Source: an uncultured Clostridia bacterium
Lineage (GTDB): Bacteria > Bacillota > Clostridia > UBA1381
Length of the DNA stretch: 64,000 bases
NCBI GenBank assembly: GCA_944392335.1
Contig: CALXWJ010000001.1
Span: 62,001 to 126,000, forward strand
Reading direction: 5' to 3'
In this document: one piece after another, positions 3,976 to 46,612 of the stretch
How positions within the stretch are numbered: the first letter of the stretch is position 1
Layout: every line of letters starts with the position of its first letter
Translations under genes and position numbers: made by a program
Notes under the pieces: model-generated
What the model saw: only the letters and a program-made list of their open reading frames with translations
What the model was told of the DNA's origin: nothing
Database searches by the model: none

Positions 3976-3976
3976 T

Positions 3977-5695: not shown

Positions 5696-5700
5696 ATCAT

Positions 5701-9514: not shown

Positions 9515-12500
9515 ATGAAAATAAAGAGATTTAATTCGTTTTTGTTAATCTTATCATTGGTTTTATCGTTATTTTCAGCGTTTTCGGTTGAAGCGGAAGA
9601 AATATGGGACCCTTTTAACGGGGATAAAAATGTTAATATAGTATATTTTGGAGGATCTATAACAAATGGAAGAGGATACCGTACAGATATTGGTGAGTAT
9701 CTTATAGATACCTATGAAAAAATCGTTCCTGGAAGAAAAATAACCAATCATAATGCGGGAATTGGCGGAACAGGCTCTGACTACGGCTATCTTAGGTTAA
9801 ACCGAGATGTTATTTCAAAAAATCCCGATTTGGTTTTTGTGGAGTTTGCGGTAAACGACGTCGGGGCCGATGAAACGGTAGTAAACGAGAGTATGGAAGG
9901 CATTGTAAGGAATTTACAGAGCCTTAAAAATCCTCCTATGATAATTTTTGTATATACTACAGGTACCAATTTTAAAAATGCATCTGAAATACATCATAAA
10001 ATTGCAGAGTATTACAATATTCCGGAATTGGATTTCAGACAGTATATGATAGATGAGGGTTATGAGGGCGTTACAGGGGTTACATATGAAAACCTGCCTT
10101 CAAGGCTTAAGGCTTTATGGTCAGATTTGACTCATCCCAATAGTGACGGACACAAACTTTGGTCTGATTATGCGATAGAAGAATTTAAAACAAATGCAAA
10201 AAATTGGTTTGCCCATCCGATTATTAGAAAAAATAAGTTATCTTCTTCTTTAAAGGATGGTTTTAATTTAAAATGGGAAGCCGCTAAGGAGGCTTATGAC
10301 AATGGAACGCTTAAAATATCAGGCAAAACGCAGGACTACAGTATATCAGACGAGGGTGGACTGCTTATAAAAAAAGACGTATCAGCACAATATACATTCA
10401 GCGGTAAAAATATACATGTATATGGAAAGTATCGTACAGACGGCGGACGTATAAATGTGAGCTGTGAAGGAAAAACGGAAAACAAAGATATGTATTCCTT
10501 ATATAATAACCTCGATTGTTCGGTATATAAAAATTATGGTTTGAATGAAGGGGAACATATTTTGACTATTGAAAGCAGCGATGTCATTCCGAGCGGCAGT
10601 ACGGGAAGCAATGTAACCATTGACGGATTTTTTGTTGATGCAGACATGCTCGTATATCCTTCGGAATATCCCGAAGACGCAAGTATAAATATAAGAGAAG
10701 ATGAATCTGCAAAAAATGAGGATACCGCGCAAGAGCAATCTAAGAGTAAGTTATATGAAAAAGAACTTGTTATGGCTAAGGATATTGGTATTTTAACAGA
10801 AGAACAGTTTGAAAAAGCTGATGAACCCATTGCAAGAAAAGAATTTGCACGTTTGCTCTGCAGGATCATTGAACCGTTTAATGATGAAAATCAGCAATGG
10901 TACTCTGAGGTTTTTTCGCAGGATAAAAATTTTATAACTGTTGAAAAGACAGAGGCGGGGGAAAATATTTTTGAAGATGTTGAGGTAAATAATGAATATA
11001 TTGATGATATTCATGCCGTTTACAGCAAAGATCTTATGATTGGAAAAACTGAGACTGAATTTGCCCCTGATGATAATCTTACAATTAATGAAGCATTAAA
11101 GGCCTTTGTTAATATGATGGGTTATTCCGAATTGGCACAAATGCATGGCGGTTATACTTCGGGGTACATGTATGTTGCGCAGAGCCTGGATCTATTAAAC
11201 GGTCTGAAATATTCATCCGCTGATGATGCTATCAGCATTGCGGAAATATCCAGGATATTATATAATATGTATGACCAGAAAATCTTTGGCATAACATCAA
11301 TTGATGCGGGAAATGCAACTTATGAGCCGACCAATGATACTTTTCTTACAAGATATATGAAGATGGATTGGATAAAGGGAAGAGTTACCAAAACCCTTAT
11401 GACATCATTGGCAGGTGATACAAGTGCAAATGAAATTATTATAGGCGGTTTCAATTTTATAGCAGAGGAAAAAGATGTATATATAAATAATTATCTGGGA
11501 AGAACAGTTACGGCATATTATAAAGAAGATGACGGGGAATGTTATCTTGTGGCTGTATATCCTTCAGATAATGAAGATATTATAGAGCTTTCAGCAGAAG
11601 ATTTTGTGGATTACAGTGATCAGAAATTATACTATATTGACAATAGTTCCTTGGGCAGAGAAAAAAGTGTATATATCAGCGAAAATGCTGATATCGTATA
11701 TAACGGCGGGATAATATCGGTATTTGATAAGAATATTTTTGAATTTGCTAAGGGAAATATTACGCTTATTTCAACTGAGAGGGATAAGAAATATAATATT
11801 GTCATAATTGACAGTTATGAAGACTGGAATGTGATTTTAAATGACAGCCGGAATTTGAAATTATACAGAAAAGCTGTTGCGGGAAGCAGTGAAGAAGATA
11901 ATTGTCTGGATTATTCTGAGGATTCGAAAATTGAGGTTCGTGATGCGCTGGGAAATTATATTGATATAGAAACTATAGAAGTCGGAGATAAGCTTTTGGT
12001 GGCAAAAAATGCAGATTATGCCAAAATAATAAAATCCAGTGAAGCGGAAAGCAATTTTGTTGTGTCGAGTATTGAAAAAAACGGATATAAAGAAAAATAT
12101 GATATAATTTCAAACGGCGAAAAAAGTTATACTATAGTTTCCGATTATATAAATACAGACGGATTTGTGAAGCCTGCTTTGAACAACACATATACACTGT
12201 ATTTAGACAGCTTCGGATTTGTTTCATGGATCGAGCTTACGGCAGCAGCAGAAAAACAAGAGGGATTTGTAAGGCAGGTTAGTGTGGTTTACAGCGATGA
12301 AACCGGAGAAGAATCTCTTCTTATAAAAATAATAGGGTTTGATTCTGTTGTAAACAAATATGAAGCAGCGCCGAAAATGAAAATTACAGATGACAAAGGA
12401 GAAACGTATACGTGCAAAAATGTTTCTGCCATGAACGCAATACTTGGCGGATATGTAGGTTATATGAGTTATAAGCTTGATGAAAACGGAAGGATAAGTT

Positions 12501-13591
12501 CTGCACAGCTGGCAAGAAGCGTAGAGGACAAGACAGGAAACCCGGATGTTGTATATGACCTTATAAAGACAGAAAATATGCAGTCAAATGAATTTGGCGC
12601 AAAATCATATGTCAACATGTTTTCTTCAGCAACAGACAGAATATATTTGAAGAATAACGAGACAAAAATATTATATTGTCCGCAGGATATAGAAGAATAT
12701 AAATACCGGGCTTCAAACACTATGTCAGATTTCTTTACTACAGATGTCCAATATACGGTATATGCATACGGGAAAAAACTTAACACTTGTATTGCTGATT
12801 ATATAATTTGCGATACAGCGCCTGCATCGGAAAGCAAATTTTATATGAGGGAAAATGTATATTTGGTCAATAAGATTGAAAGTACAGTTATAGACGATGA
12901 AATAGCGGATAAAATTTATGCTACCAAATTGGACGCAAACGGTACGGCAACACAAACAGAGCTATACACAACAAAAAGGGACAGCACAGATGGAAATGGA
13001 AATGAATGTTCCTTTAGGGATGCCTGCCCTAATCTTTTGCAAACGGGCGAACTGTATAAAATTGAAAGCGGAGATATAATAGCGGCAGTTGTTGATAAAT
13101 TTAATGACGGTTTTATAAATGATGCTTATATGATATATAAATCAAAAGCATATGCTCCCGACGCTACAGATGGTGTAAGGCCGGGCTGGATCGTGGGAGC
13201 CGTATCGAAATATGATGATACAAATAAAACGTTAAACGGCAATCCCTATGCAGTTAATAATTCGCTTTTATCCGACGCCAAGAGTTACACAGTATACGGG
13301 ACAAGAGTTTTGAAGGGATATGTTTTAAGCTATATTGACGGAGTGCTTAAATATACTACTCAGGATCTGTCAGCAGGAGCTTCATATAATCCTGAGCTGA
13401 GCGGATATATAACAAATATTGATAAAAGCTTAAAAGTTTATGTTCTGAATTATAAAGGTGATAATGTTAATGTTACAGGCGCTTCAGAGACACAAATAAA
13501 GACGTATGATAATTATGGAAGTAATGCTTCGGCGATTCTTACTGTTTCGTATGGTCTGGAGGGAGTTGCGCTCATAATAAACAATAATTAA
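9515..13591 (+). CDS. SGNH hydrolase - SLH - X-domain fusion protein
   Basis: 1358 residues, signal peptide 1-27. An SGNH/GDSL esterase domain (~38-230) has all blocks: FGGSITNG (nucleophile Ser48), GIGGTGSDYG, FVEFAVND, and DLTHPNSDGH (Asp204, His207). An accessory beta-sandwich (~230-370) follows, then three SLH-type repeats (~410-590) with ARKE, TINE and SIAE at the anchor motif, so they are degenerate. The last ~750 residues are the X region, shared with the proteins at 26600 and 43875 but of no known family to me. SGNH enzymes of this kind often deacetylate plant polysaccharides; that substrate class is inferred. The start at 9515 has GGAGGGGTGA before it, 4 bases after the preceding stop. 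It appears to be the last gene of cassette A. Confidence 0.88.
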   Translation: MKIKRFNSFLLILSLVLSLFSAFSVEAEEIWDPFNGDKNVNIVYFGGSITNGRGYRTDIGEYLIDTYEKIVPGRKITNHNAGIGGTGSDYGYLRLNRDVISKNPDLVFVEFAVNDVGADETVVNESMEGIVRNLQSLKNPPMIIFVYTTGTNFKNASEIHHKIAEYYNIPELDFRQYMIDEGYEGVTGVTYENLPSRLKALWSDLTHPNSDGHKLWSDYAIEEFKTNAKNWFAHPIIRKNKLSSSLKDGFNLKWEAAKEAYDNGTLKISGKTQDYSISDEGGLLIKKDVSAQYTFSGKNIHVYGKYRTDGGRINVSCEGKTENKDMYSLYNNLDCSVYKNYGLNEGEHILTIESSDVIPSGSTGSNVTIDGFFVDADMLVYPSEYPEDASINIREDESAKNEDTAQEQSKSKLYEKELVMAKDIGILTEEQFEKADEPIARKEFARLLCRIIEPFNDENQQWYSEVFSQDKNFITVEKTEAGENIFEDVEVNNEYIDDIHAVYSKDLMIGKTETEFAPDDNLTINEALKAFVNMMGYSELAQMHGGYTSGYMYVAQSLDLLNGLKYSSADDAISIAEISRILYNMYDQKIFGITSIDAGNATYEPTNDTFLTRYMKMDWIKGRVTKTLMTSLAGDTSANEIIIGGFNFIAEEKDVYINNYLGRTVTAYYKEDDGECYLVAVYPSDNEDIIELSAEDFVDYSDQKLYYIDNSSLGREKSVYISENADIVYNGGIISVFDKNIFEFAKGNITLISTERDKKYNIVIIDSYEDWNVILNDSRNLKLYRKAVAGSSEEDNCLDYSEDSKIEVRDALGNYIDIETIEVGDKLLVAKNADYAKIIKSSEAESNFVVSSIEKNGYKEKYDIISNGEKSYTIVSDYINTDGFVKPALNNTYTLYLDSFGFVSWIELTAAAEKQEGFVRQVSVVYSDETGEESLLIKIIGFDSVVNKYEAAPKMKITDDKGETYTCKNVSAMNAILGGYVGYMSYKLDENGRISSAQLARSVEDKTGNPDVVYDLIKTENMQSNEFGAKSYVNMFSSATDRIYLKNNETKILYCPQDIEEYKYRASNTMSDFFTTDVQYTVYAYGKKLNTCIADYIICDTAPASESKFYMRENVYLVNKIESTVIDDEIADKIYATKLDANGTATQTELYTTKRDSTDGNGNECSFRDACPNLLQTGELYKIESGDIIAAVVDKFNDGFINDAYMIYKSKAYAPDATDGVRPGWIVGAVSKYDDTNKTLNGNPYAVNNSLLSDAKSYTVYGTRVLKGYVLSYIDGVLKYTTQDLSAGASYNPELSGYITNIDKSLKVYVLNYKGDNVNVTGASETQIKTYDNYGSNASAILTVSYGLEGVALIINNN

Positions 13592-13908: not shown

Positions 13909-13913
13909 AAAAT

Positions 13914-15277: not shown

Positions 15278-15335
15278 ATAGCTGCGGACAAAATGCCCCC
15301 GCTTTTTCGGCGGGGGACGTCTTGTAAGCAGCTAT
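15278..15335. repeat. Hairpin repeat, compact copy (family 1, copy C)
   Basis: A 58-base nested palindrome. The outer stem is ATAGCTGC with GCAGCTAT (8 pairs), then ACAA/TTGT, then an inner stem CCCCCGC/GCGGGGG around a short T-rich loop. Its left end matches those of the longer elements at 17393 and 38700 (ATARCTGCGGACA followed by a C-rich stem). It lies between the convergent GH27 and URO-D-like genes, 30 bases past the latter's stop. On the minus strand the stem is followed by CATTTTG, so it may also terminate the URO-D-like transcript. Confidence 0.7.
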
Positions 15336-15365
15336 GTAATTGTAAGACAAACTAAATTGATTTAT

Positions 15366-16424: not shown

Positions 16425-16483
16425 AAAATACCTCTTTTCTTTTATACCCGATTATGATATAATATTCTAAAACCCATAATATC

Positions 16484-16497
16484 ATACCGATTGGTAT
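16484..16497. promoter_or_regulatory. Candidate operator palindrome ATACC-N4-GGTAT
   Basis: A perfect 5-base inverted repeat around GATT lies in the divergent promoter region of the URO-D-like gene and the AraC gene. A near copy (ATATC-GATT-GGTAT) occurs at 21724-21737 before the cassette B LamG gene. A TATAAT hexamer is nearby at 16458-16463. Regulator unknown. Confidence 0.35.
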
Positions 16498-16553
16498 TTT
16501 ACTATGTGAAATTAACCATTTAATCTTTAAAAATAATCAAAGTGAGTGATTTT

Positions 16554-21737: not shown

Positions 21738-21794
21738 ATTTAACAGAAAAATAAAATGCAGAGAAATCTGCTAAAAAATCAGGAGGAGATCTTA

Positions 21795-25019: not shown

Positions 25020-25031
25020 TAAATGTTAAAG

Positions 25032-25062
25032 TGCTCTGCAAAAATAAAATTTTTGCAGAGCA
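25032..25062 (+). terminator. Perfect 13-bp hairpin without a T tract
   Basis: TGCTCTGCAAAAA and TTTTTGCAGAGCA flank a TAAAA loop, 13 bases past the LamG stop and 45 before the S start. Lack of a T run after the stem argues against a simple terminator; partial read-through, mRNA end protection or processing are alternatives. Confidence 0.6.
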
Positions 25063-25106
25063 TACTGTGGAATTTTGTATTGCGCGAAAAAGAATGGAGG
25101 ACTACA

Positions 25107-26603
25107 ATGCGAAAGATTTTATTGGCATTGCTGATTATGGGCATAAATATTACAGGCGTATCGGCAGCAGGAACTATTACAAGCAACTTATTAGTGACAG
25201 ACCCTGCCAATGCTAAGGTGAAGGTCAGCGGCAGTATTGGTGAAGCAGCAAGCAAAGAGCTTTCGCTCTTAATAAAGAAGAGTGATGCAGAATTTTTTGA
25301 GGGAGATAATTTAACGGGAAAGAATTTTTACACAAAAACTATAACTACTGATATGGACGGCAGTTTTGAGCTTGAGTTTGTTTTTGATGCTGAGAGCGGA
25401 TTATATGAAGTGTATTTTTCAGATCTATATAATAGCGGAAGCGGTTATGTTTATGATTTTAATTATATTGCTTATGAGGAAGTGTTGGAATTTGTAATCA
25501 GATTGGGAGAAAACAGTGTTAAAGAGCAGGATATGATAGCAGAGCTTAACAGATATTCCGACAGCCTTGGTATAGGATTTGAGGAAATAGAGAATTTTTT
25601 GAAAAAGGAATATATATCGGAAGATATAATAAATAATTCAGAAATAATTAAAGCTGATAAAATAGATGGATTAAAAAGAGTAGTGAATTTCAGCGGCAGT
25701 CGTTTTGATATATTAAACGGAATATATGAGGCAAAGCTCCCGGGAGATGTATATAATGTAATTACTGAAAATGCTGCATTAGCAGAGCTCCCTTCGGAGA
25801 TTATTTTGGATTTTAATAATTTAAAATCTTCAAAACAGACTGAGGTGTGTAAAAAACTGCTTGGAAAGGATTTCACATATGATGAATTTTTAAAGACCTT
25901 TGAAGAAGAAATAGAGTCTATAAAAAAGGCAGTTACAGTTACGGGGGGAAACTCCGGCTCCGGCGGAGGCTCGCCTGTTTCAAATAAAACCGGCATTTCC
26001 GGCGGCGGATATGTTATGACAACTGAGAGTGATGAAAGCGATGCTGCTGTAAAATATAAGTTTGGTGATATCGAAGATGTTCCGTGGGCAATTGAAGCTA
26101 TAGAATATTTGGCGGAACAAGGAATTGTCAACGGTGTGGGTGAGAATAAGTTTGACCCGAACGGAGAGCTTACAAGGGAACAATTTGCAAAATTGATTGT
26201 AGAAGCATATAATTGCTATGACGAAAATGCAGAATGTATATTCAGTGATGTCCAGAATGGATCATGGGCAGAAAAATATATTGCATCGGCTTTTGATAAC
26301 GGTCTTATGAATGGTATAAGCGAAACCGAATTTGGTATCGGTAAAAATGTAATTCGTCAGGATGCGGCGCTTGTACTTTATAGATTTGCCAAGCTTATTG
26401 GTGTGGAAATGACCGCAGCAGAGCTTGATTTTGATGACGCGGAGGAAATAAGCGAGTATGCAAAAGAGGCTGTAAGCGCTATGTATGGCACAGGAATAAT
26501 AAACGGAATGGATAACAATACATTTGCTCCCAAAAACACAATAACAAGGGCACAAGCCTGCAAGATGTTATATGAGGTCATGAAAAGAGGTGTGGAAGGA
26601 TGA
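25107..26603 (+). CDS. SLH-anchored surface protein, S family (cassette B)
   Basis: 498 residues from ATG 25107 with TGGAGG before it; the longer reading frame would begin inside the hairpin region. Signal peptide 1-21. A beta-rich N-terminal domain (~22-130), a mostly helical stretch (~130-270), a Gly/Ser linker (~273-300, GGNSGSGGGS) and three SLH repeats (~312-498) with TREQ, IRQD and TRAQ at the wall-binding motif. The order matches the S proteins at 3977 and 42099, although the N-terminal halves are poorly conserved. The SLH repeats imply attachment to the secondary cell-wall polymer. Its stop overlaps the start of the next gene by 4 bases, implying translational coupling with the SLH-X protein. 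Confidence 0.9.
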   Translation: MRKILLALLIMGINITGVSAAGTITSNLLVTDPANAKVKVSGSIGEAASKELSLLIKKSDAEFFEGDNLTGKNFYTKTITTDMDGSFELEFVFDAESGLYEVYFSDLYNSGSGYVYDFNYIAYEEVLEFVIRLGENSVKEQDMIAELNRYSDSLGIGFEEIENFLKKEYISEDIINNSEIIKADKIDGLKRVVNFSGSRFDILNGIYEAKLPGDVYNVITENAALAELPSEIILDFNNLKSSKQTEVCKKLLGKDFTYDEFLKTFEEEIESIKKAVTVTGGNSGSGGGSPVSNKTGISGGGYVMTTESDESDAAVKYKFGDIEDVPWAIEAIEYLAEQGIVNGVGENKFDPNGELTREQFAKLIVEAYNCYDENAECIFSDVQNGSWAEKYIASAFDNGLMNGISETEFGIGKNVIRQDAALVLYRFAKLIGVEMTAAELDFDDAEEISEYAKEAVSAMYGTGIINGMDNNTFAPKNTITRAQACKMLYEVMKRGVEG

Positions 26604-29374
26604 AAAGGAGAATTTCGTTGGTTTTGCTCGTGAGTATTGCGTTATCATTATTTTACCATGTAAACGCGGAGGACAATAAAATCTACGATTTAAAGGATGA
26701 GCAAAAAGCCTTGCTTGATGCAATAGGTTTTAAAAACCTTGACAAGGATTTTTCGGATAATATAACAAGAGCCGAGTTTGCATATCTTACAGAGCAAATC
26801 GCTTATGACCACACTAACGTCGAATATGCCTATACAGAATGCTTTGTTGACGTCACTGAAGAAACGGCATACAGTGCAGCAATATCCTCATTATACAATA
26901 TGGATATTATAAAAGGATATTCAGACAGTTATTTCAGACCTGAGGATAATATAACTGTTGATGAAGCGCTTGCCATCGCGTCACGTTTGTTTAACAGATA
27001 TACATATTTTGATGTTGAAGAACAGACAAATTTTGCATGGAAAATGGGATTGACAGACGGTGTTGATACAAAAAACGGAAAAGAACTAAATCTGTATTCG
27101 GCAATGGTAATTCTTTTAAATACTCTTGACAGCGATTTGACCGGTATCGCGTATTACTTTGGAGAAAGTGATAAGGAAGAATACGATACATATCTTACCA
27201 GAACGTTTTCTGTATACCCAATAAACGGAGCAGTGAGAAATGATGGAAAAATTTCTTCTGACGGTGTAAGTGAAGAGGTTGGAGACACGATAGTCATAGA
27301 AAATTTGGAAGTTAAAAGAGCTGTAGAGTATAAAGAGCTTTACGGCAGAAAGATTTACAGCTTCTGCAAAAAAGATTCTAATGATGAATATACCATGCTT
27401 TCATATTATATGAAGGAAGAAGAATCGGTATTTATAAATTCAAAGAATATTGAAGAATTTGCGGATATGAGAATTAAATATTATCCGGACAGCAATGCCG
27501 CAAAAACAAAAACCGTTACAATACCTGATGGAATAGAGATTGTTTATAACGGTGTGCCGGTTGATGCTTCTGATGATTTCACAACAGATATGCTTATTCC
27601 TGAAAAGGGAACGATAGAGCTCTACAGTAACAATAGGGATCCCGGTTATGATATTTGTTATGTGAATTCTTATATTTCCTATGTGGTGATGGGGACGAAT
27701 GAAGCTGAGGAAGTGATAAATACAAAGAATGAAGTCAGTTTTGAACTTGAAAATTATGACTATATTATAACAGATAAATTTGGTGATCACGTACCTCTTA
27801 CACATATCTGGGAGGATTCGGTCATATTGGTCGCAAAACCGTTGAAATCGGATCTATTACATATAATTGCTTCATCGGACAGCTTAACTGACAGAATAAC
27901 TGCATATGACTCTGAAAGTAAAGTGATAATAACAGAATCACAAGGCGAATTTGATATATCTTGTTATTTTGATAAATACGGTTATAGTGTAACGGTCGGA
28001 AAAATATATGATATTTTTCTTGACCCGTTTGGAGAAGCGGCATATGTACGAATTGTTGTGGATGCGGATGAATACAATGTGGGATATCTTATGTGGTGCA
28101 GATATATGGAGACAGATGAAAACGGTGAGGAATATTATGCTATAAGATTTGTAGATACGGAAACAAATGAACAGACCGTAAGGCTTTCTGAGAAGGTTAC
28201 ATTTTTTGAGGCAGAAGAAATATATTCAAAAAGACTAAAGGATGAAGTGGTTTTTAAAAAGTTAGATGGTGAAAGCGGAATATTCAGGTACAAACTTGAT
28301 GACTATGATATGATAAAAACCATTGAACTGCCCCTTGAGGGAAATGTTAATGCTGAAAAGAGTGACAGACTTTGCCTTTTAGCTGACACTGATGCGGGAA
28401 GTTTAAGATATATAGGGTATCCTATATATTCTCTTGGCGGAGTGGTTAATTTAAACAGTCAGACTTTATTCTGGTCAGCTCCGATAGACCGCGAGGGAAG
28501 TGAAAATTTCACTGTAGCAAAAGGAATACCTTTCGATCATCAGTCAAATTATACAGTAACTGCTTACGGAACAAACAGGAGAACAAATCTTGCGGATATT
28601 GTGGTATATAGTCCGACAGCGCTTTATATTAAACCTCATCCTATGGTAATTACCGATATAATGCAAGAATATGATGAAGAGCTTGACGAGGTGGTTTACA
28701 GAGTCGAGGGGATGTGGAATTCTGTTTCATATAAATACCGCATCGAAGAAGAACTTTTAAATAGACCTATAGATATGTTTAATAAGGAGGCTGTAACGCC
28801 TCTGGCAAAAGGTGATGTTATTAAATTCGCGGAGTATAAGGGTGAGATTATAGAATATACTCTTGTTTATGATGCGGATTGGAATTCGGGATTTTATTCC
28901 GAACAAGGATTTATATCAGGTGCAATTTCGGGAAAATATGATCCTGCCAACAATATGGGAAATCCTTGTGCTACCAGATACAATATCATTTTAGATGATA
29001 CCGATAATAAATATAAATTAAACCGTCTTGCTCCGTTAGACGCAAAGCTTTTCGGTAATGGGCAGCATTATCTTTTGGGATATATCTATTCTTATGAGGA
29101 CGGAATAATAAATATAACAAATCAGGATTTGGGGTCGAGGACGTATGACGATACCCTTACATTGGAAAAGGATGGAATTATAAGTGAAAAATATGCTTTC
29201 AGCACAGTTTCAAATGCTTTTATGACTGTAACCTTAGGACGAAGTGATGTAACGGCTTCCAAAGCTGTTGAGTCGGATATAAAACCTTATACTTCTTATG
29301 GTAACAGATGTTCAAAAGTATTACTTTGCGGAGACGGTTCAACGCTTGTCGGCGTGTTTATAATGAATGATTAA
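26600..29374 (+). CDS. SLH-X surface protein (cassette B)
   Basis: 924 residues, signal peptide 1-23, start overlapping the previous stop (ATGA). Three N-terminal SLH-type repeats (~28-185): the first has a good TRAE motif, the second TVDE, the third is badly degenerate. The remaining ~735 residues are region X: long, beta-rich and acidic, with short repeated signatures such as IVYNGVPV, GTIELYSNN, DICYVNSYISYVV and LSEKVTFFEAEE, and ending YTSYGNRCSKV..GVFIMND. The same region follows SLH repeats at 9515 and 43875. I recognise no known family. Coupling to the S protein suggests the two are needed in equal amounts, perhaps as an anchor pair. Confidence 0.85.
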   Translation: MKRRISLVLLVSIALSLFYHVNAEDNKIYDLKDEQKALLDAIGFKNLDKDFSDNITRAEFAYLTEQIAYDHTNVEYAYTECFVDVTEETAYSAAISSLYNMDIIKGYSDSYFRPEDNITVDEALAIASRLFNRYTYFDVEEQTNFAWKMGLTDGVDTKNGKELNLYSAMVILLNTLDSDLTGIAYYFGESDKEEYDTYLTRTFSVYPINGAVRNDGKISSDGVSEEVGDTIVIENLEVKRAVEYKELYGRKIYSFCKKDSNDEYTMLSYYMKEEESVFINSKNIEEFADMRIKYYPDSNAAKTKTVTIPDGIEIVYNGVPVDASDDFTTDMLIPEKGTIELYSNNRDPGYDICYVNSYISYVVMGTNEAEEVINTKNEVSFELENYDYIITDKFGDHVPLTHIWEDSVILVAKPLKSDLLHIIASSDSLTDRITAYDSESKVIITESQGEFDISCYFDKYGYSVTVGKIYDIFLDPFGEAAYVRIVVDADEYNVGYLMWCRYMETDENGEEYYAIRFVDTETNEQTVRLSEKVTFFEAEEIYSKRLKDEVVFKKLDGESGIFRYKLDDYDMIKTIELPLEGNVNAEKSDRLCLLADTDAGSLRYIGYPIYSLGGVVNLNSQTLFWSAPIDREGSENFTVAKGIPFDHQSNYTVTAYGTNRRTNLADIVVYSPTALYIKPHPMVITDIMQEYDEELDEVVYRVEGMWNSVSYKYRIEEELLNRPIDMFNKEAVTPLAKGDVIKFAEYKGEIIEYTLVYDADWNSGFYSEQGFISGAISGKYDPANNMGNPCATRYNIILDDTDNKYKLNRLAPLDAKLFGNGQHYLLGYIYSYEDGIINITNQDLGSRTYDDTLTLEKDGIISEKYAFSTVSNAFMTVTLGRSDVTASKAVESDIKPYTSYGNRCSKVLLCGDGSTLVGVFIMND

Positions 29375-29405: not shown

Positions 29406-32400
29406 ATGTGTATGAAGAGAATAATTACATTTATATCAGTGCTTGTAATGCTGTTTTCAATAAATTATTTCCCTGAATATGCTTTTGCCCAAAATAAAAT
29501 GAATGACCTGACCGACAATTATAATGATTGGCAGATTATAAGAGGAAATGGTTTTAAAAAGGTAAACGGAGCCTTGGTATATAATAGCGAAGAACCAAAA
29601 AATTACGATGATATTATTCTGTATTCAAAAAATGAATTTTCCTCTGGAGAATATATTGCCGATATTATCGTTAAAAAAGGCAATTATATCTCTATGCTTA
29701 TAAAAGCCGATGAAGATAAAACAAACTATTTATTAAAGCTTGATTATAAGAACGGGAAAATGTCTGTATTAAAAAAGATTGACGGGGGAAAAGAAAAGTT
29801 ACTGGCGTCTGCGGAGTGTAAACTTGAATATGACCGTCAATACCGTATTCACATAACTGTAAATGGAAGTGATATAACGGTAAGTCTTGATGGAGAAATT
29901 GTTGCTTCCGTAAATGATAATGAAATATCATCGGGAAGAATAGGATTTGCTCTAAAAGATGCAGTTGTATCAATACCGGCTGTATATTGCTATAAAGATG
30001 AAAATGTTGTATATGAAAATGCTATTGTTGAGGATATATATAAGAACAACAAGGAAGCAGTGAAGATATATGTTGCTCCAAACGGAAAAGATACAAATGA
30101 CGGAAGTGAACAAGCGCCGCTTGCGACAATGCAAAAAGCTAAAGAACTTGCAAGAGTACTTTCAAAAAACAAGACGCCTGTTGATGTGATTTTTAAAGAG
30201 GGTGAATATGTTCTTTCTTCAGGCGTTGAATTTTCAAAAGAAGATTCCGGAAAAAAGGGGGCATGGATTACATATAAAGCGGAGGAAGGTGAAAAGGTAA
30301 CATTTACCGGAACAAAGAAGCTGGATGTTTCAAAATTTGAACCTGTTACCGATGAAAAGCTTCTTTCTAAAATTTGTGATGAGGCTAAGGGGAAGGTTAT
30401 GCAGCTTGATTTGGCTGCACAGGGAGTACCAAAAGAACTACTTCATTGGACAAAGCGTGCAGATGAATATGATGTAAAACAGCCTATCGGAGTTCTTGTA
30501 AAGCCGCAGATTTTCTTAAATGACAGACTGCAGCACATTTCAAGATGGCCCAACAGCGGACAGGTAAAGACTTACGGTGTTGTGGATAAAGGAGCAACGT
30601 TTTCATACAATGATCCGCAGAATGTAAAAAACGGCGGAACAATAAATTATAAAGAGTCCCGTCCTGAACGATGGATTGAAGCGGAGGATGCTTTTTTACA
30701 CGGACATTTTAAAAATCCGTGGTATTATGAAGAAGCGAAAATAAGAAGTATTGATACATATAATATGACAATTACAATGGACCATTGGGTGTCATATAAT
30801 TTTACAACCGATTATCCGCTTTGCGGCTGGCAGGTAATAAATCTTATAGAGGAAATTGATATTCCGGGAGAGTGGTATATAGATAAAAACACATCAATGC
30901 TTTATTATTATCCGCCTCATGAGCTTACAGAGGAAGATGTTTTTGAAATCGGTATTTTGTCGGACGATATGATAACTTTGAATGAAACAAAATATGTTAA
31001 GTTCGAAGGCTTGGAATTTGCAAAAAATTCCGGGATTTATGGAGGAAGAGCATATACACGTTTGGACTATTACGGTGAAAATGGAATTATGCTTAAAAAT
31101 GTGGAAAATATTTGTATAAAAGATTGTACCTTCAGGGATTTAGTAAGTTGTTGTATACATGTTGAAGGAAAAAATGTATTAATTGATTCTTGTGTTATGT
31201 ATAACTATGGAAGAGATGCAGTAAAAGTATTTGATTCGGGAAATTATGAAACTATAGAGTCAGGAAATACAATAATAAGAAATTGCCATATCTCGGGTGA
31301 ATCGATGCGATATACGGGAGATAATGGCTCGGGAGGAATAAATATCAGCGGTGACGGTGATATTGTGGGAGTTGTTGTTGAAAACAATATTATTCACAAT
31401 ATGCCGATGCCTGCGATATATTACGGGGGAATGGCACATACTCTGCAATATAACGAGCTTTATAATGTTCAAAACAACGCCTCTGACGGCGGAGCGATAT
31501 ATTGTGGCAGAAGCTGGGGACAGATGGGAACGGTTTCTCAGTATAATTATATTCATGATGTTGGTATACAGGAGGAGATCCATATCGCGACAGGTATATA
31601 CTGGGATGACCAGCATTCCGGTAATATTGCAAGATATAATATAATAAAGCCGGATAATATGTATGATGGGCACGGGTTCTGGTTAAACGGCGGAAGTCAT
31701 AATCAAGTTTATGCCAATACAATTATTAATGCTAAATATGGCATTCGTGCGCACAGCACAAGTATGACGGGTGACGGAACAGTTATGGATCAACTTCTTT
31801 CTAAACCGTTTACATCCAAGGTTTATGTGCAGAAATATCCGGCAATGCTTGAACTTTATACCGAAAAGATGCAAAACGGTTCGGTTAAGATAAAAAATGA
31901 TTTCAGCGGAAACTTTATTGTTAATGCCCCTAACTGGTACCATGAAGAACGCTATAAAAACGATGAAACCATAAACGGAAATGTAATATTGGAGGAGTAT
32001 GATGAAAGTATTTTTGTTGACCCCGAAAACCAGGATTATAGGGTGAAAAAAACCGCAAAAGAAAAATACGGACTTGACGCAGGTATTCTTGACGAGGATT
32101 TTGATATCAGTCTGATCGGAATTCAGACAGACTACAGGATCGATGAAGAAAAGATGGAATTTAATCTTTTATCGCCTGAAAACGGCGGCAAAAACATTTC
32201 TCCGGAAGGAGCTGAAATTGCCTGGGAACAGTCGTTATTTGCCGACAGGTATGAATATAGGGTGGCAGAAGATCGGGAAATGACTAAAATAGTTGCAGAA
32301 GGTTCAACAAAGTATTATTCAGTTACATTGCCGGAGCTTGAAAGCAATAAGACCTATTACTGGACAGTTACCTCTGTTAATGATTCAAGGACCCTTGGCT

Positions 32401-33281
32401 GTAAGCATGAAACTGAAAGCGGAGTATTTTCATTTACAACAGGAGACGTATCAAAGCTTGACAATGCAATGCTTAAGCTTAAGATAAGACAGGCAAAGGA
32501 AACCTTATCAACAATTGTTGAAGGAGAGATTCCGGGAACATATAAGTATGGTACTGCTGAAGAATTTGAGAGGGTTATTGAAGAAGCAGAAAAAACGGCA
32601 GAAATAGAATACGGAAAAACTGAAATTGTTGATAATGCAATTGATAGTATAGATACCGCAAATTCTATGCTTGCGACAAAGCTGAATGTCGGATTCACTG
32701 AACCAAAACTTACACCTGATACAGGATGGTATGCTACACAGGCAACTGCGGCAGTAACGGCTGATTCAGGTGAGATTTCAATAAGTGCACAGGGTGAGAA
32801 GATGAATGTTGTTTTAACAGAGAGGCTTGGAAGCCATAATGTTCAGTGTTTTGATTTTATGATTGAAAGAGAATCAGGTTCCGATTGGTACGGCATCGGT
32901 ATACGTCAGCAGGTTGAAAATCAGATACTCTGGACAGACAGCTATTATATTGTTGTTAAGCCGGATATTATAGAATTTCAGGGAAGCGGTAACATATTCG
33001 GAACAATCCCGAATGACGGAAAGATTGTTAATAACAAATGGTATTCCTTGAAGATGGCGGCGATAAATATAGCAGAAGGTGTATATTATGCAGTTTATAT
33101 TGATGATGAGCTTTTGTTTGAATATATTGATAAAGACGGTGCAGTGTATGAAGACGGTATGATCACAATGTATATACCTTCAGGTGCAACCATGAAGATA
33201 AGAAACAGCGAAAATGTAGAAACGGGACTTTTTAATCTGAGCGAAAGGATAGAAGCTTTGAACAATAAAAGAGAGGAGTAA
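29406..33281 (+). CDS. Secreted beta-helix protein, GH141-like, LamG at both ends
   Basis: 1291 residues; ATG 29406 has GAAAGGA 7 bases upstream. Signal peptide 1-29. An N-terminal LamG/concanavalin-like domain (~35-205) precedes the beta-helix, which opens with IYVAPNGKDTNDGSEQAPLA (~223) and carries ISRWPNSG, EIDIPGEWYIDKN (~482) and SDGGAIYCGRSWG (~692), then VDPENQDYRVKK. After it come Fn3-like (~918-1011), FIVAR-like helical (~1015-1095) and a second LamG-like domain (~1098-1275). The closest relative in the window is the protein at 5701. The fold and motifs fit GH141-type glycosidases; substrate is unknown. Secreted but without its own anchor. Confidence 0.82.
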   Translation: MCMKRIITFISVLVMLFSINYFPEYAFAQNKMNDLTDNYNDWQIIRGNGFKKVNGALVYNSEEPKNYDDIILYSKNEFSSGEYIADIIVKKGNYISMLIKADEDKTNYLLKLDYKNGKMSVLKKIDGGKEKLLASAECKLEYDRQYRIHITVNGSDITVSLDGEIVASVNDNEISSGRIGFALKDAVVSIPAVYCYKDENVVYENAIVEDIYKNNKEAVKIYVAPNGKDTNDGSEQAPLATMQKAKELARVLSKNKTPVDVIFKEGEYVLSSGVEFSKEDSGKKGAWITYKAEEGEKVTFTGTKKLDVSKFEPVTDEKLLSKICDEAKGKVMQLDLAAQGVPKELLHWTKRADEYDVKQPIGVLVKPQIFLNDRLQHISRWPNSGQVKTYGVVDKGATFSYNDPQNVKNGGTINYKESRPERWIEAEDAFLHGHFKNPWYYEEAKIRSIDTYNMTITMDHWVSYNFTTDYPLCGWQVINLIEEIDIPGEWYIDKNTSMLYYYPPHELTEEDVFEIGILSDDMITLNETKYVKFEGLEFAKNSGIYGGRAYTRLDYYGENGIMLKNVENICIKDCTFRDLVSCCIHVEGKNVLIDSCVMYNYGRDAVKVFDSGNYETIESGNTIIRNCHISGESMRYTGDNGSGGINISGDGDIVGVVVENNIIHNMPMPAIYYGGMAHTLQYNELYNVQNNASDGGAIYCGRSWGQMGTVSQYNYIHDVGIQEEIHIATGIYWDDQHSGNIARYNIIKPDNMYDGHGFWLNGGSHNQVYANTIINAKYGIRAHSTSMTGDGTVMDQLLSKPFTSKVYVQKYPAMLELYTEKMQNGSVKIKNDFSGNFIVNAPNWYHEERYKNDETINGNVILEEYDESIFVDPENQDYRVKKTAKEKYGLDAGILDEDFDISLIGIQTDYRIDEEKMEFNLLSPENGGKNISPEGAEIAWEQSLFADRYEYRVAEDREMTKIVAEGSTKYYSVTLPELESNKTYYWTVTSVNDSRTLGCKHETESGVFSFTTGDVSKLDNAMLKLKIRQAKETLSTIVEGEIPGTYKYGTAEEFERVIEEAEKTAEIEYGKTEIVDNAIDSIDTANSMLATKLNVGFTEPKLTPDTGWYATQATAAVTADSGEISISAQGEKMNVVLTERLGSHNVQCFDFMIERESGSDWYGIGIRQQVENQILWTDSYYIVVKPDIIEFQGSGNIFGTIPNDGKIVNNKWYSLKMAAINIAEGVYYAVYIDDELLFEYIDKDGAVYEDGMITMYIPSGATMKIRNSENVETGLFNLSERIEALNNKREE

Positions 33282-33304: not shown

Positions 33305-33325
33305 GTGTCTTTGGCACGGAAAGGA
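33305..33325 (+). promoter_or_regulatory. 5-bp hairpin joined to the ribosome binding site
   Basis: GTGTC-TTT-GGCAC can form a five-pair stem ending exactly where the GGAAAGGA site (33318-33325) begins. The same arrangement with paired substitutions occurs at 43841-43862. It may tune translation of the SGNH gene. Confidence 0.45.
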
Positions 33326-33331
33326 ATGGTT

Positions 33332-35290
33332 ATGAAAATGATGAAGAAAATACTGCCCATTTTAATGACAGTATCGATTGTGTTTTCCGCCCATACACTT
33401 GTATGGGCAGAAAACAGCATTACAGCAAAAAACATTCATGAGTTAACAGACAATATTTTTATTGAAGGAAAGCTTTCTGGAGAGGCAGAGGCAGACGTTG
33501 TTACAGTGCTTATGATGAAGGATAATGAGCTTAAATATATAAAGGAATTCCCTTTAAACGATGACGGGAGTTATCAGTGTAAATTTAAGTTTATACCGGA
33601 CGAAGGAACAACTATAGCGGATTACAGCTTAAAGGTCAATGCAGGTGGACTTGATGTTACCGATACCGTTGCGACTGTGACCGATGGGGAATTATATGAG
33701 TTTGATATTAAATATTCAAACGCGTTCGGTGACTCTGTTATAGATTTTACGGGTGATGTTAAGGCAACGGTTATGGTTAAAAATAAATATGCAGACAATG
33801 GGACTTTGCCGGTTTATTTCAGTTCATATAAAGATGATTCTTTAACAGAAGTTATAAGTGATAAAATAAATTTTAATTTTAATGTGAATCAGGCTGTAAC
33901 TGTTAATCAAAATTTAACATTGGATTTGACAAGATCAAAGCTTATGCTTTGGAACGGACTTTCGGGAATGTTACCTTTAGCAGAAGCAAAAGAGCTTAAA
34001 AAACAGACTTATGGCGCCGATAAGCTTGCGTTAACAAAAGATGAGCTTACAGCATCGGAAAATAAAATAACGATTGTAGGAATTGCTGCATCCGTAACCC
34101 AGGGGGCGCATGCAGGCAATGATGGGACAAACCATACCGATGCAAATATAAGCGATGAGGCTTTAGCAGAATATGGCTGGGTTGGAAGAACTGTAACAGG
34201 TTATTTTGAGGAAAAATACGGTGCACAAAATGTTGAATATTATTCTGCGGCAATTGGAGGCAGCAATACAAGAATGGCTCTTTACCGTTTACAAAAGGAT
34301 GTGCTGTCATACAGCCCGGATGTGGTATTGCTGGATGTTCCGGTAAATGATAGTTGGAGTGATCCATCATATAATCCGAAGTTGTATGCCGAAGCCATTA
34401 TAAGACAGCTTTTAAAGAATGAACATCAACCTGTTATTATATTAAACCAGTTTGCAGGCTTTAAAAATTCAGGGAAAATTGATGAGGAAGGTAATAATAT
34501 AAAAATTTTAGATGAAGACAGGAAGAATAATCCGGTAAAAGCCGCAGAGGAACTGGCATATAAATACAATCTTCCTTTTATGAATTTCTATAAGCTTATG
34601 GAAGATGTTATTGCCGGCAACGCAGATGAATATCTGACAGTTGACGGGACGGATTACAGCAGCCAAATTACAGATGCACACAGCTGTTGGGATATATTGA
34701 TGTTCGATTCGGTTCATCCTAACAGAATAGGGCATGGAGTTTATGCAAATTATGCGATTGCCCACCTTAAAAATGATGTAAATCTTTCAGGAGAAAAACA
34801 TACAAAAACATTTGAAAATCCTTTAACAGGTTATGAGTATAATAACCCGCATATGATAAGCTGGAAGGAAGCGACAGAATCAGGGATGGCTGAATGGTCA
34901 GACGGCTGGTACGAAGAGGAAGAGGTCTGGGGAGACGGATACAAATCGGCAAATTATACTGTATGTAATGGGAAAGTTTGGGAAGACGGTGCGTATAAAA
35001 CAATAAATGCCGGAAACAGCGTCACCTTTAAATTCAGCGGGACTTCGATAGGGATTTATGCAAGACGCGGAGCTGCATTTGATGCAGAATATAGTATTGA
35101 TAACGGCAAAATTACAGGTACATTTACTAATAAGGGGGACAGCGCATATTGTGTCCCGTGGGAACTTCACGGAATTGAGGACGGAGAACATACAATAACA
35201 ATTACAACTATAGGCACAGAAGAACTTGAGAATAATACTAATCCAAACAATCATTTTACAATAGCATATTTTTTGGTTGATTGTGAATGA
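33332..35290 (+). CDS. Secreted SGNH hydrolase (esterase-like), cassette B
   Basis: 653 residues from ATG 33332, 6 bases after GGAAAGGA; earlier in-frame starts fall in the leader hairpin or on the ribosome site. Signal peptide ~1-28. A beta-rich N-terminus (~30-225) ends in the recurrent module (LMLWNGLSGMLPLAEA). The SGNH domain (~240-490) has GIAASVTQG (Ser254), AIGGSNTR, LLDVPVNDSW and FDSVHPNRIGHG (Asp459, His462), so the catalytic set is complete although block I is unusual. A C-terminal beta-sandwich (~530-650) resembles that after the SGNH domain at 9515. De-esterification of a plant polysaccharide is the usual role; the actual ester is unknown. Confidence 0.87.
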   Translation: MKMMKKILPILMTVSIVFSAHTLVWAENSITAKNIHELTDNIFIEGKLSGEAEADVVTVLMMKDNELKYIKEFPLNDDGSYQCKFKFIPDEGTTIADYSLKVNAGGLDVTDTVATVTDGELYEFDIKYSNAFGDSVIDFTGDVKATVMVKNKYADNGTLPVYFSSYKDDSLTEVISDKINFNFNVNQAVTVNQNLTLDLTRSKLMLWNGLSGMLPLAEAKELKKQTYGADKLALTKDELTASENKITIVGIAASVTQGAHAGNDGTNHTDANISDEALAEYGWVGRTVTGYFEEKYGAQNVEYYSAAIGGSNTRMALYRLQKDVLSYSPDVVLLDVPVNDSWSDPSYNPKLYAEAIIRQLLKNEHQPVIILNQFAGFKNSGKIDEEGNNIKILDEDRKNNPVKAAEELAYKYNLPFMNFYKLMEDVIAGNADEYLTVDGTDYSSQITDAHSCWDILMFDSVHPNRIGHGVYANYAIAHLKNDVNLSGEKHTKTFENPLTGYEYNNPHMISWKEATESGMAEWSDGWYEEEEVWGDGYKSANYTVCNGKVWEDGAYKTINAGNSVTFKFSGTSIGIYARRGAAFDAEYSIDNGKITGTFTNKGDSAYCVPWELHGIEDGEHTITITTIGTEELENNTNPNNHFTIAYFLVDCE

Positions 35291-35314: not shown

Positions 35315-38300
35315 ATGATAAATAAAAAAGCTATAGCACTGCTTTTAAGCTTTGGTCTGATATTGGGGATAATACCCCAATATCAGGTATTGGCTTTTAA
35401 TGATACCGGATTGATATCGGTTACAGCTTCGGAAAACAAGATAACAGTATCGGGAAAAGCAGCAGCGGAAAATGAAAATATAAGCATTATTCTTACGGAA
35501 CAAACTACAACAAGAGATGATATTTCTGCGATTGAGACGGATGAGGATTTAGTTAACAGATTAAAAAACTTTTATATAACTGAAAGTGTAAATTATAATT
35601 TTGAAAAAACTCTCAGTACAGAGGAACTGAGTGATGATTTTAAAATAATTATTTCATCTGAAAATATGCTTCTTGAAGAAAATATATCAAAAAACAAAAT
35701 ATCAGAATGTCTTTTGGAAAATTATGAAATCGATGAACAGGGCGGAATAACTGTGTGGGGAAGCTCAGCGGAAAATGCACAAATTTATATATTGGACGAA
35801 AGCTTGTTTGAGGGGGATCCGGGGACTGCAACAAGTGATGAAAACATAGAAAAGTATATAATTAAGAATGTAGCCGCAGGAAGCGGGGAGTATAATGTCA
35901 CAATTGGTAATGTATTTTACAATGTAAATACAGTGGCTTTATGTGTAAAATCAGGTGATGAAAAAATTGTTTACAAGGTAGAGTCAAACTATATTCATGT
36001 AGGGAATAATATAGGTGAGACCGGTAATGGAACAATTGCAAGGCCTTTTTCATCAATTGAGACAGCAAAAGAATATTTAAGAGAGAATAAATCAAACAGG
36101 GAAATGTTTGTTATAATACACGGCGGTAGATATGAATTTGAAGAAACAGTAGTGTTTGATGAAAACGATGGCGCAACAGAAGATAGGCCTATAACCTATA
36201 AAGCGGCAGAAGGTGAAGATGTTATATTTACCGGTGCAAGGGTGATTGAAAATTCATTTTTTGAAATTCCGGGTGATGATGTTAAGGCAAGACTTAAAGG
36301 CGCAGCGGCAGACAATGCGGTAATGCTTGATTTGAGTAAAATAGGGGTAAATTTTGATTTTGTTTCTTTTATGAATGAAGGAAATAATCAGTTATTCAGG
36401 TATCTGAATATTTTTTTAAACGATAAAAGACAGGATATCGCCGGATGGCCAAACGGTGAGAAATTCAAAATAACAAGCGTTACTAAAGGGAGCGATGTAA
36501 CTACAGACAGATACCTTGAAATTGACGGGCTTGATACAAGCAAATGGCAATACAGTGATAATATTTTTATCTATGGTTGTATCGGAAACTGGTGGAATCA
36601 TGAATGGGATGAAATAGCAGCGTTTACCGAGAATATAAAGGAGTTGAAAATAAGCTCATATTCATCCGACCCGACAGCATATCTTGGTGAGGAATACAAT
36701 AATCCTCAGTTTACCGGCAGAGTACTCAATGTTTTAGAAGAAATGGATATACCTGGAGAATGGTATTTAGATGTAAGCGGATTAAAACTTTATTATTATC
36801 CGCCCCATAAGCTGACAGATGAAGATACATTCGAAATCGCAGTTTTTGACGATGATTTTATAAATATAAATGAATGTCAATATATAAATTTTAAAGGGAT
36901 TAATTTTGAAAAAAATGCTTCGAAATCTGGTACGATAAATACAAATAAGAACCATTCGGGACATGCTTTATCAATAGAAAATTCAGAAAATATAAATATA
37001 GAAAATTGTAAAATCAGACACATTGGAATGAGTGGCATAAACGCAGATGGCAGAAATATTTTAATTGACCGGTGTGTTATTTCGGATGTAGGACACTGCG
37101 GAATAAGTGTTGGTCTGAAAGGCTGCCGGGAAGAACTTACAGAAACGGGAATTGTGATAAGTAACAATATTATTTCCGATGTTGCAAGGGAAAGAGGCGG
37201 AAACGGTTCTGTCGGCATATATTTAAGAGATGACAATGTAGGAACTGTTGTTAAAAATAATATTGTACACAACACAAAAAATATTGCCGTACGCTATGGT
37301 GGACTTGGTAATAAAATACAATATAATGAGATATATAATGTTATAAATGACAGTTCGGATTCGGGGGCAATTTATGCAGGAAGAAGCTGGGCAGATTACG
37401 GTAATGTGATAGAATATAATTATATTCATGACTACGGTGTTAAGGATGAAAGTGAATCTCCGGCATGGCTTGCCTGCGGTATTTACTGGGATGATAAACA
37501 TATAGGAAATACTGCAAGATTTAATATAATTGTTCCGAATAATACTTATGACGGATATATTGCACATATAAATGGCGGTGCACAAAACACCTTCCAAGAG
37601 AATATTTTTGCAAATTCCAAGGTTGGGGTAAGATATGCATCAAGTGCAATTAATAATACCGATATAGGAACTTGTGAAGACAGGGTTCTTGAAATTCCAT
37701 ATAACTCGCAAATTTATCTTGAAAAATATCCTGAAATAAATAATACATATACAACATGGAAAAATGAAGGTGAATTCTATTCATATAATTATCTGAAAAA
37801 CAATTTTAATGTGGGAGCTGCAAATGAATTTGAAGGGCCGATTCAGATTAGTCTATGGAATGAAACAAATAATACAACGGATGTATCTATTGACTACAAT
37901 GACGAGGTTTTTGTTGATTCTTCAAACCATGATTATAGGGTGAAAGATGAAGCAAAGGCTCAATACTGTTTGATGGATGGAATACCTGGAGAAAACTTTG
38001 ACATGGATTCTATAGGGCTTCAAAGTGATTATTTGCTCTCAGATAAGGATAAGGCGTTTGAATTGTTATATCCGGAAAACAATGCAAATGGATTAACGGC
38101 AGAAAAAATTTCGATTGTCTGGGAAAAATCTGATTTTGCTGATGAATATAATTATTTTGTATACAGTGATAAAGAGGGTAAGAATATTGTCAGGAGCGGA
38201 AGTACACATCATACTAATGTAACTGTTGAAGGGTTGGAATATGGAAAGGACTATTATTGGCAGGTAGTTGCTAAAAATATGTCAAAAGAGATAAATTTCG

Positions 38301-38626
38301 AAGAAAAATCCGAAATATACAGATTTTCAACTAAGAATAATCCGAGAATATCAGAAGTTACCTTATTTGAACAGAATATTTCATTTGTTGCGGAAAATCT
38401 TAATGATTCAGAAGTTTCGTTTGTTGTTATCGGGGCTGTGAAGGATGGATCGGGAAAGCTTTTGGCTGTAAATACTGAAAGTTTTACCATCCCGGAAAAA
38501 GTAACCTTGGAAAAGTCAATTTTTTTAAATTATCCTTTTGTTTCTGATAAGCATAAGATTGAATTTTATGTATGGCAGGATTTGGTGAAAATGAATCCTA
38601 TAATATGTAAAACAACACTTAGATAA
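35315..38626 (+). CDS. Secreted beta-helix protein, GH141-like (cassette B, second)
   Basis: 1103 residues; AAAGGAGAG precedes ATG 35315. Signal peptide 1-29. An N-terminal region of ~200 residues (Ig-like, unrecognised) leads to the beta-helix (~225-890) with ARPFSSIETA, DIAGWPNGE, EMDIPGEWYLDVSG (~475) and SDSGAIYAGRSWA (~682), then VDSSNHDYRVKDEA. Fn3-like domain ~910-1010; C-terminal recurrent module ~1012-1103 (FYVWQDLVKMNPI). It thus joins the beta-helix and the module that other cassettes place in separate proteins. GH141-type glycosidase is the best guess. A strong hairpin lies within the signal-peptide codons (35357-35386). It is the last gene of cassette B. Confidence 0.82.
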   Translation: MINKKAIALLLSFGLILGIIPQYQVLAFNDTGLISVTASENKITVSGKAAAENENISIILTEQTTTRDDISAIETDEDLVNRLKNFYITESVNYNFEKTLSTEELSDDFKIIISSENMLLEENISKNKISECLLENYEIDEQGGITVWGSSAENAQIYILDESLFEGDPGTATSDENIEKYIIKNVAAGSGEYNVTIGNVFYNVNTVALCVKSGDEKIVYKVESNYIHVGNNIGETGNGTIARPFSSIETAKEYLRENKSNREMFVIIHGGRYEFEETVVFDENDGATEDRPITYKAAEGEDVIFTGARVIENSFFEIPGDDVKARLKGAAADNAVMLDLSKIGVNFDFVSFMNEGNNQLFRYLNIFLNDKRQDIAGWPNGEKFKITSVTKGSDVTTDRYLEIDGLDTSKWQYSDNIFIYGCIGNWWNHEWDEIAAFTENIKELKISSYSSDPTAYLGEEYNNPQFTGRVLNVLEEMDIPGEWYLDVSGLKLYYYPPHKLTDEDTFEIAVFDDDFININECQYINFKGINFEKNASKSGTINTNKNHSGHALSIENSENINIENCKIRHIGMSGINADGRNILIDRCVISDVGHCGISVGLKGCREELTETGIVISNNIISDVARERGGNGSVGIYLRDDNVGTVVKNNIVHNTKNIAVRYGGLGNKIQYNEIYNVINDSSDSGAIYAGRSWADYGNVIEYNYIHDYGVKDESESPAWLACGIYWDDKHIGNTARFNIIVPNNTYDGYIAHINGGAQNTFQENIFANSKVGVRYASSAINNTDIGTCEDRVLEIPYNSQIYLEKYPEINNTYTTWKNEGEFYSYNYLKNNFNVGAANEFEGPIQISLWNETNNTTDVSIDYNDEVFVDSSNHDYRVKDEAKAQYCLMDGIPGENFDMDSIGLQSDYLLSDKDKAFELLYPENNANGLTAEKISIVWEKSDFADEYNYFVYSDKEGKNIVRSGSTHHTNVTVEGLEYGKDYYWQVVAKNMSKEINFEEKSEIYRFSTKNNPRISEVTLFEQNISFVAENLNDSEVSFVVIGAVKDGSGKLLAVNTESFTIPEKVTLEKSIFLNYPFVSDKHKIEFYVWQDLVKMNPIICKTTLR
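35357..35386 (+). promoter_or_regulatory. 12-bp perfect hairpin inside a signal-peptide coding region
   Basis: CTGATATTGGGG (35357-35368) and CCCCAATATCAG (35375-35386) flank ATAATA. It begins 42 bases after the start codon of the beta-helix gene and encodes LILGIIPQYQ. Whether it slows ribosomes during export or is chance is unknown. Confidence 0.5.
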
Positions 38627-43832: not shown

Positions 43833-43840
43833 TACGCTTT

Positions 43841-43862
43841 GTGCCTTGCGGTACGGAAAGGA
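43841..43862 (+). promoter_or_regulatory. 5-bp hairpin joined to the ribosome binding site, second copy
   Basis: GTGCC-TTGC-GGTAC forms a stem directly before GGAAAGGA, followed by AATGGT as at 33305. Compared with that copy, the fourth pair changes from T-G to C-G and the third from G-C to G-T, so pairing is kept. Confidence 0.45.
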
Positions 43863-43874
43863 ATGGTCAAAAAT

Positions 43875-46544: not shown

Positions 46545-46612
46545 TAAGTATATCGGTACAAAAATTATTTTACTGTTTGTGCTGATATTGTGTCAGCGGA
46601 ATGGAGATTTTT

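Follow-up and report, generated by a model that had tools for sequence, protein, structure and literature searches.

Several ways of organising proteins at the bacterial surface are known. The SusC/SusD proteins of Bacteroidota form a divergent two-gene surface pair, which a single genome may carry in many of its glycan loci, and the scaffoldins of cellulosomes are surface proteins that organise enzymes. In the Xyn10A1 system of Paenibacillus sp. JDR-2, the surface-layer homology (SLH) domains are borne by the glycoside hydrolase itself (PMC4765114). The surface-layer (S-layer) protein SpaA of P. alvei, with SLH motifs TRAE, TVEE and TRAQ, binds mainly via a pocket formed by the Arg of SLH1, the Gly of SLH2 and the Trp of SLH3 (PMC6081394), and in the csaA-csaB-sap-eag cluster of B. 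anthracis the S-layer genes stand beside csaB, whose product pyruvylates the SLH ligand (PMC3297441). Here we compare with these systems three proteins, X1 to X3, encoded in a 64,000-nt stretch of DNA from an uncultured Clostridia bacterium (contig CALXWJ010000001.1, positions 62,001 to 126,000; hereafter the window). In each, an SLH trimer is followed by a long beta-rich region, region X, and the family to which they belong very probably includes the main S-layer protein of this gut bacterium.

X1 (P0001, 924 aa, open reading frame 26600-29374), X2 (P0002, 1358 aa, 9515-13591) and X3 (P0003, 43839-46544) are full-length homologues. BLASTP gives E=2e-29 for X1 against X2 (23% identity over 927 columns), E=4e-29 for X2 against X3 and E=2e-9 for X1 against X3, and the similarity is therefore not due to chance. 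An earlier, sequence-only reading of the window had described a long region shared behind the SLH repeats, and the motifs that it named (a YLG...YY strand, Y/LNG, an SY..VV segment and a hydrophobic C-terminus) are all present in the three-protein alignment. That it could not place region X in a known family is understandable: Pfam and NCBIfam scans, of X1-X3 alone and across 56 family members, gave nothing above noise, and scattered weak Pfam matches (Amidase_6, LysM_OapA and others) were not used. The paralogue alignments contain no conserved polar set, which rules out region X as a catalytic domain; what is conserved is structural Gly, Asn and Tyr, and neither an aromatic nor a polar binding set is shared. 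The same reading was right about an unrecognised domain and about a contrast between SLH repeats, but it counted three paralogues where the genome holds 38, and it missed the very probable identity of the X family with the S-layer-protein family of the clade.

On sequence evidence, the identity of X as an S-layer family is well supported. We consider it probable that region X forms the lattice in a family of SLH-anchored S-layer proteins found throughout the clade, and that the copies in the window are glycan-locus-specific S-layer or S-layer-associated subunits, each made together with an SLH anchor. This reading is preferred because of four features: the codon bias of one member, P0020; csaB neighbours; an Arg pattern like that of SpaA; and a structural model with an SLH trimer and a chain of barrels.

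First, P0020 (1051 aa, contig C82) is a divergent full-length homologue of X whose similarity extends well beyond the SLH part (hhalign E=6.6e-60, 749 columns), and it is predicted to be the main S-layer protein. With codon bias taken as a proxy for protein amount, its codon adaptation ranks second of the 383 genes tested, above the ribosomal proteins, which agrees with the high abundance in the cell expected of SLH-anchored S-layer proteins. When counterparts in 10 other genomes are ranked against ribosomal proteins, they come first in 8 and second or third in 2, which brings the genomes with bias at or above that of ribosomal proteins to 11 of the 11 tested. Second, a csaB-type gene (PF04230) adjoins an X-family gene in four genomes (G001, G016 and the remote G349 and G369), as in B. 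anthracis. In G001 it is the main member, the counterpart of P0020, that lies beside the csaB-type gene, together with genes for a MurJ-type flippase, an O-antigen ligase, two glycosyltransferases and DUF4330 proteins. In G016 it is the core member, an order-wide copy that in the window's genome lies downstream of a ksgA-like gene. The related genomes also hold a conserved second X-family member of about 860 aa.

Third, the core and main members have the SLH Arg pattern of SpaA, described below with the other SLH motifs. Fourth, we built AlphaFold models of a core member and of X1, both longer than 800 residues. In the core model (mean pLDDT, the predicted local distance difference test score, 87.4), the predicted SLH trimer matches SpaA-SLH with Z 19.6 and a root-mean-square deviation (rmsd) of 2.7 over 161 residues, and a chain of small beta-barrels is predicted to follow it. 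Residues 29-203 of the X1 model match SpaA-SLH with Z 16.0 (rmsd 2.8, 151 residues aligned). In having an N-terminal SLH trimer (Z 16-19.6) and a large beta-rich C-terminal part, X resembles P. alvei SpaA and B. anthracis Sap and EA1. Core segments 220-291, 448-501, 507-588, 680-761 and 765-856 are modelled as OB-type or similar small barrels (Z 5-7.4), and similar barrels are predicted in X1 at 420-487 and 491-577, the last 160 residues of that model being unreliable. The barrel alignments cover 53-73 residues with rmsd 2-3.5 and Z 5-7.4, which is not above the scores of common arrangements; "OB-like" thus describes a shape and makes no family claim, and such a barrel is not named among the S-layer lattice folds in a review (PMC8559796). 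Region X matches none of the solved S-layer lattice domains in sequence: searches of PDB sequences with the X, core and P0020 profiles matched meaningfully to the SLH part only. YhaM and a ferredoxin-like dimer gave weak PDB profile matches that were set aside, and Foldseek matches to DDB1 beta-propellers and bS1, at TM scores of about 0.08, are meaningless. No S-layer lattice domain was among the structural matches, which cover Foldseek-ranked entries for models of more than 800 residues, so that the presence of one is not excluded. Profile comparison within region X gave weak pairs only (best probability 77, segments 500-600 and 676-764), and a tandem duplication is suggested.

Several observations weigh against this reading. 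Codon bias outside the window's genome was ranked against only 8-30 genes per genome, and six remote genomes show a weaker signal, ribosome-like in four. The csaB-type PF04230 genes of the window's own genome are on other contigs and not beside X, and the barrel matches fall below the level that separates kinship from common arrangement. The window copies have ordinary codon bias (mean 0.65 for X other than the core, against 0.64 for all genes tested), and for this reason are not themselves main S-layer proteins. We found no literature on Monoglobus S-layers in the library searched.

Two side observations concern the surroundings of P0020 and its counterparts. Among all the genes tested, codon bias is highest in P0021 (578 aa, secreted-looking, without SLH), about 8 kb from P0020 (L085:740-2476, minus strand, contig C82). 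Moreover, a second gene that has the C-terminal half in common with the main S-layer candidate, but no match to its SLH part, occurs in G001 (see L246:2285-4651 and 13849-16857) and in the window's genome (L245:6484-8361, contig C79). In G001 it is inverted, lies about 10 kb from the main gene and is 80% identical to it in DNA over 1.85 kb; this arrangement could allow recombinational switching.

The 38 long X copies of the 3.64-Mb genome (found with a profile of 22 members, P0020 not counted) are about 20% identical to each other; the reading frame is open in all of them, and a crude rule assigns 37 of them a signal-like N-terminus. X-family matches occur in 60 of the 61 genomes of a related set of Monoglobus-like Clostridia, the window's own included. 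In a sample of the class, 106 of 292 genomes match the SLH-including profile, where the weaker matches may reflect SLH alone. With an SLH-free profile, remote homologues (E 1e-14 to 1e-30) turn up in seven genomes from other families of the same phylum; the three examined in full are 780-880 aa long and bear SLH. In the family tree the core forms one clade, most main members form another and the S-linked copies (those paired with an SLH anchor, S) fall outside both; branches are long, and the tree leaves undecided the deeper order and whether S-linked X has a single origin.

Such multiplicity is unlike SpaA, Sap and EA1: there are many X paralogues per genome, and most are paired with a separate SLH anchor in a glycan locus. 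The features of the window are as follows, with all coordinates as positions in the window, all on the plus strand, and genes called by the longest-frame rule.

3953..5695, plus: S2 gene (P0007), upstream of X2 with one gene between them (domain scan, profile)
5692..9510, plus: secreted-protein gene between S2 and X2, overlapping S2 by 4 bases and ending 4 bases before X2
9515..13591, plus: X2 gene (P0002, 1358 aa), in which a GDSL esterase domain precedes an SLH trimer and region X in one protein
9647..10159, plus: GDSL lipase/esterase domain of X2, residues 45-215 (PF13472, E=1.7e-13), overlooked by the sequence-only reading
10754..13588, plus: part of X2 that holds the SLH trimer and region X, approximately residues 414-1358 (BLASTP, alignment, profile)
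25023..26603, plus: S1 gene (P0004), Ig-like and helical stalk, three C-terminal SLH repeats with Arg in all three (domain scans, motifs); overlaps X1 by 4 bases
26600..29374, plus: X1 gene (P0001, 924 aa), 761 bits to the family-model profile
26684..27208, plus: predicted SLH trimer of X1, residues 29-203, Arg in SLH1 and none in SLH2 or SLH3 (structural match to SpaA-SLH; motifs)
27209..29371, plus: region X of X1, residues 204-924, a predicted string of small beta-barrels with the last 160 residues poorly modelled
29406..33281, plus: locus gene downstream of X1 with a 3-keto-disaccharide-hydrolase-like (concanavalin-type) segment (PF06439, E=6e-7)
33305..35290, plus: locus gene with an X2-like GDSL domain (matched part 34199-35287; tblastn-type match, E=5e-7)
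35315..38626, plus: locus gene closing in a shared C-terminal W-D..M-P domain
42099..43832, plus: S3 gene (P0013), directly upstream of X3 (domain scan)
43839..46544, plus: X3 gene (P0003; frame, profile), with the ATG at 43875, already given as the start by the earlier reading, as likely start
46601..50893, plus: locus gene downstream of X3
52211..56038, plus: locus gene with a C-terminal X2-like GDSL domain (55394-56002; E=1.7e-25, 34%)

The pairing extends through the genome. A same-strand gene ending in SLH domains (S) lies directly upstream of X in 31 of the 38 cases and one gene further upstream in three; in one the upstream gene has a partial SLH match, and in another S and X are naturally fused in a single frame of 1438 aa (L069:1219-5535, contig C37). 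The unpaired exceptions are the core copy and an X that is extended by 350 residues at its N-terminus and lacks a nearby S gene (L079:3763-7482, contig C72). Even if 5% of genes were S, the probability of such adjacency by chance would be below 1e-33, and S is directly upstream in 13 of 19 inspected loci of other genera and families. Across pairs, S distances follow X distances (Mantel r 0.46, or 0.59 when limited to small S proteins; 0 of 5000 permutations as high). Some S are different, larger proteins that have mainly the C-terminal SLH in common. The helical domain of S is unsupported as the specific partner of X, as it went undetected in 9 of the 34 S proteins that are paired, and some enzymes contain it as well. 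As a separate observation, three large proteins encoded just downstream of X end in the S-type helical domain and have no SLH (L051:7990-12345, L053:8505-12830 and L055:8058-12326).

The SLH motifs of the two partners differ. S1, S2 and S3 have the Arg in all repeats, as the sequence-only reading had it, and genome-wide the S proteins have it at the motif position in 34/34 (SLH1), 33/34 (SLH2) and 34/34 (SLH3). The companion statement, that only the first SLH of X approaches TRAE, is correct in that X1-X3 carry the Arg only in SLH1, but the model shows a complete, if partly degenerate, trimer fold of three SLH. In glycan-locus X the Arg is found in 31/37, 0/37 and 10/37 for the three repeats, and in core members in 19/19, 0/19 and 19/19. 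Stand-alone core and main members share an R-x-R pattern, with Arg at SLH1 and SLH3 and not at SLH2, and so resemble SpaA, an S-layer protein in which the SLH2 Arg is missing too (PMC6081394). When the pocket residues of X were counted by mapping onto SpaA, 24 of 37 glycan-locus X proved to have both the primary-pocket Arg and Gly, and 17 of those the aromatic residue as well; the secondary pocket is mostly lost, both residues being kept in 4 of 37. Judged by these residues, X is likely to bind the wall polymer, though less strongly than S. The suggestion that X leans on S for anchoring gains from the adjacency, the fusion and the correlated divergence, but X mostly keeps the main pocket of SpaA and members without S exist. 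Since SpaA itself lacks the SLH2 Arg and most X keep the primary pocket, full dependence of X on S is not shown; that S helps to anchor X is plausible and unproven.

Most X copies sit among genes for secreted glycan-degrading enzymes. The neighbours of X and S include secreted beta-helix proteins, GDSL esterases, glycoside hydrolases (GH95, GH28, GH43 and GH3), heparinase-like proteins, proteins with carbohydrate-binding modules (CBM) and sugar-binding ABC proteins. This is like the JDR-2 Xyn10A1 system in being SLH-anchored glycan degradation at the surface, and unlike it in that most enzymes here have no SLH, which is instead on S and X. From this setting we infer the role of X as a dedicated S-layer subunit. 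When glycans induce such a locus, X, S and the locus enzymes would be secreted at the same time. X would dock by its N-terminal SLH trimer on the pyruvylated secondary cell-wall polymer, via the SLH1-Arg pocket, its string of small barrels would pack beside or into the main S-layer lattice, and S, with three intact SLH motifs, would give a firm anchor in contact with X. The result would be a surface patch that holds enzymes and is dedicated to the substrate of the locus; in the case of X2 the patch itself would carry an esterase.

Other explanations have to be weighed against these subunits. The best of them, which we regard as rather unlikely, makes X a surface-anchored SusD-like or CBM-like protein that captures glycan for the locus enzymes, with S as its anchor and the S-layer kinship incidental. 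Nearly every X does lie in a locus of secreted glycan-active proteins, the high divergence of the copies is what binders with different targets should show, and beta-rich domains are common in binders. However, region X has no CBM, SusD or lectin family match (for the SusD families, none in a Pfam scan with E up to 1), its conserved positions are the structural ones noted above, and its stand-alone relatives lie beside csaB or housekeeping genes without a glycan locus.

A second alternative, which seems to us improbable, is that X, with S, is a docking scaffold to which the mostly unanchored locus enzymes bind via a shared module such as a common C-terminal domain. The 87 genes that lie up to three positions downstream of an X fit this in part: 62 have a signal-like N-terminus (crude rule), five have SLH and none has an LPXTG motif. 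Furthermore, a domain of about 100 residues with an ending of W-D-x-L-x-x-M-x-P type closes about 30 secreted proteins near S-X loci, including the window proteins 21756-25019, 35315-38626 and 56225-61342 (and others in loci L051-L090); SLH is found in only 4 of the 41 proteins that hold it, and the scans made linked it to no family. It is possible that this is a docking or maturation module, but it ends only 14 of the 87 neighbours. X and S are like cellulosome scaffoldins in being surface proteins proposed to organise enzymes, and unlike them in that Pfam gave no cohesin or dockerin match in X, S or 75 neighbours (E 1e-5). Finally, it is very unlikely that S and X stand together only because surface-protein clusters were duplicated in blocks, with no joint function and X as drifting S-layer relics, since the correlated S and X distances that this would give, and the loss of most second-pocket residues in glycan-locus X, are countered by frames open in all 38 copies at such low identity, by pairing that recurs in other families, by S that may be different, larger proteins sharing mainly the C-terminal SLH, and by the S-X fusion.

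If the S-layer reading is true, fibre-degrading gut Clostridia of a major group use paralogues of their own S-layer protein, each specific to a substrate and accompanied by an SLH anchor, to organise glycan breakdown, an arrangement that differs from cellulosomes, SLH-bearing enzymes and Sus systems. It would also predict the main S-layer protein of Monoglobus-like bacteria and give a testable role to many "SLH domain-containing proteins" without family annotation. One extension, put forward only tentatively and doubtful in its full form, would make the S-X pair the equivalent of SusC/SusD in monoderm gut bacteria, anchored in their wall: the S-layer would be re-tiled for each polysaccharide with a dedicated paralogue and its anchor, the unanchored locus enzymes would be displayed on the tile, and the lattice region would consist of OB-like barrels. 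The likeness to SusC/SusD, a divergent pair repeated across glycan loci, is one of arrangement only; there is no outer membrane here and no SusC or SusD homology in S-X. The pair is also part of a cassette that recurs in several genomes (L064, L181, L182, L183 and L185) and comprises an SLH beta-helix protein, an S with aBig_2, X, a DUF3502/SBP_bac_1 sugar-binding protein and an SLH protein.

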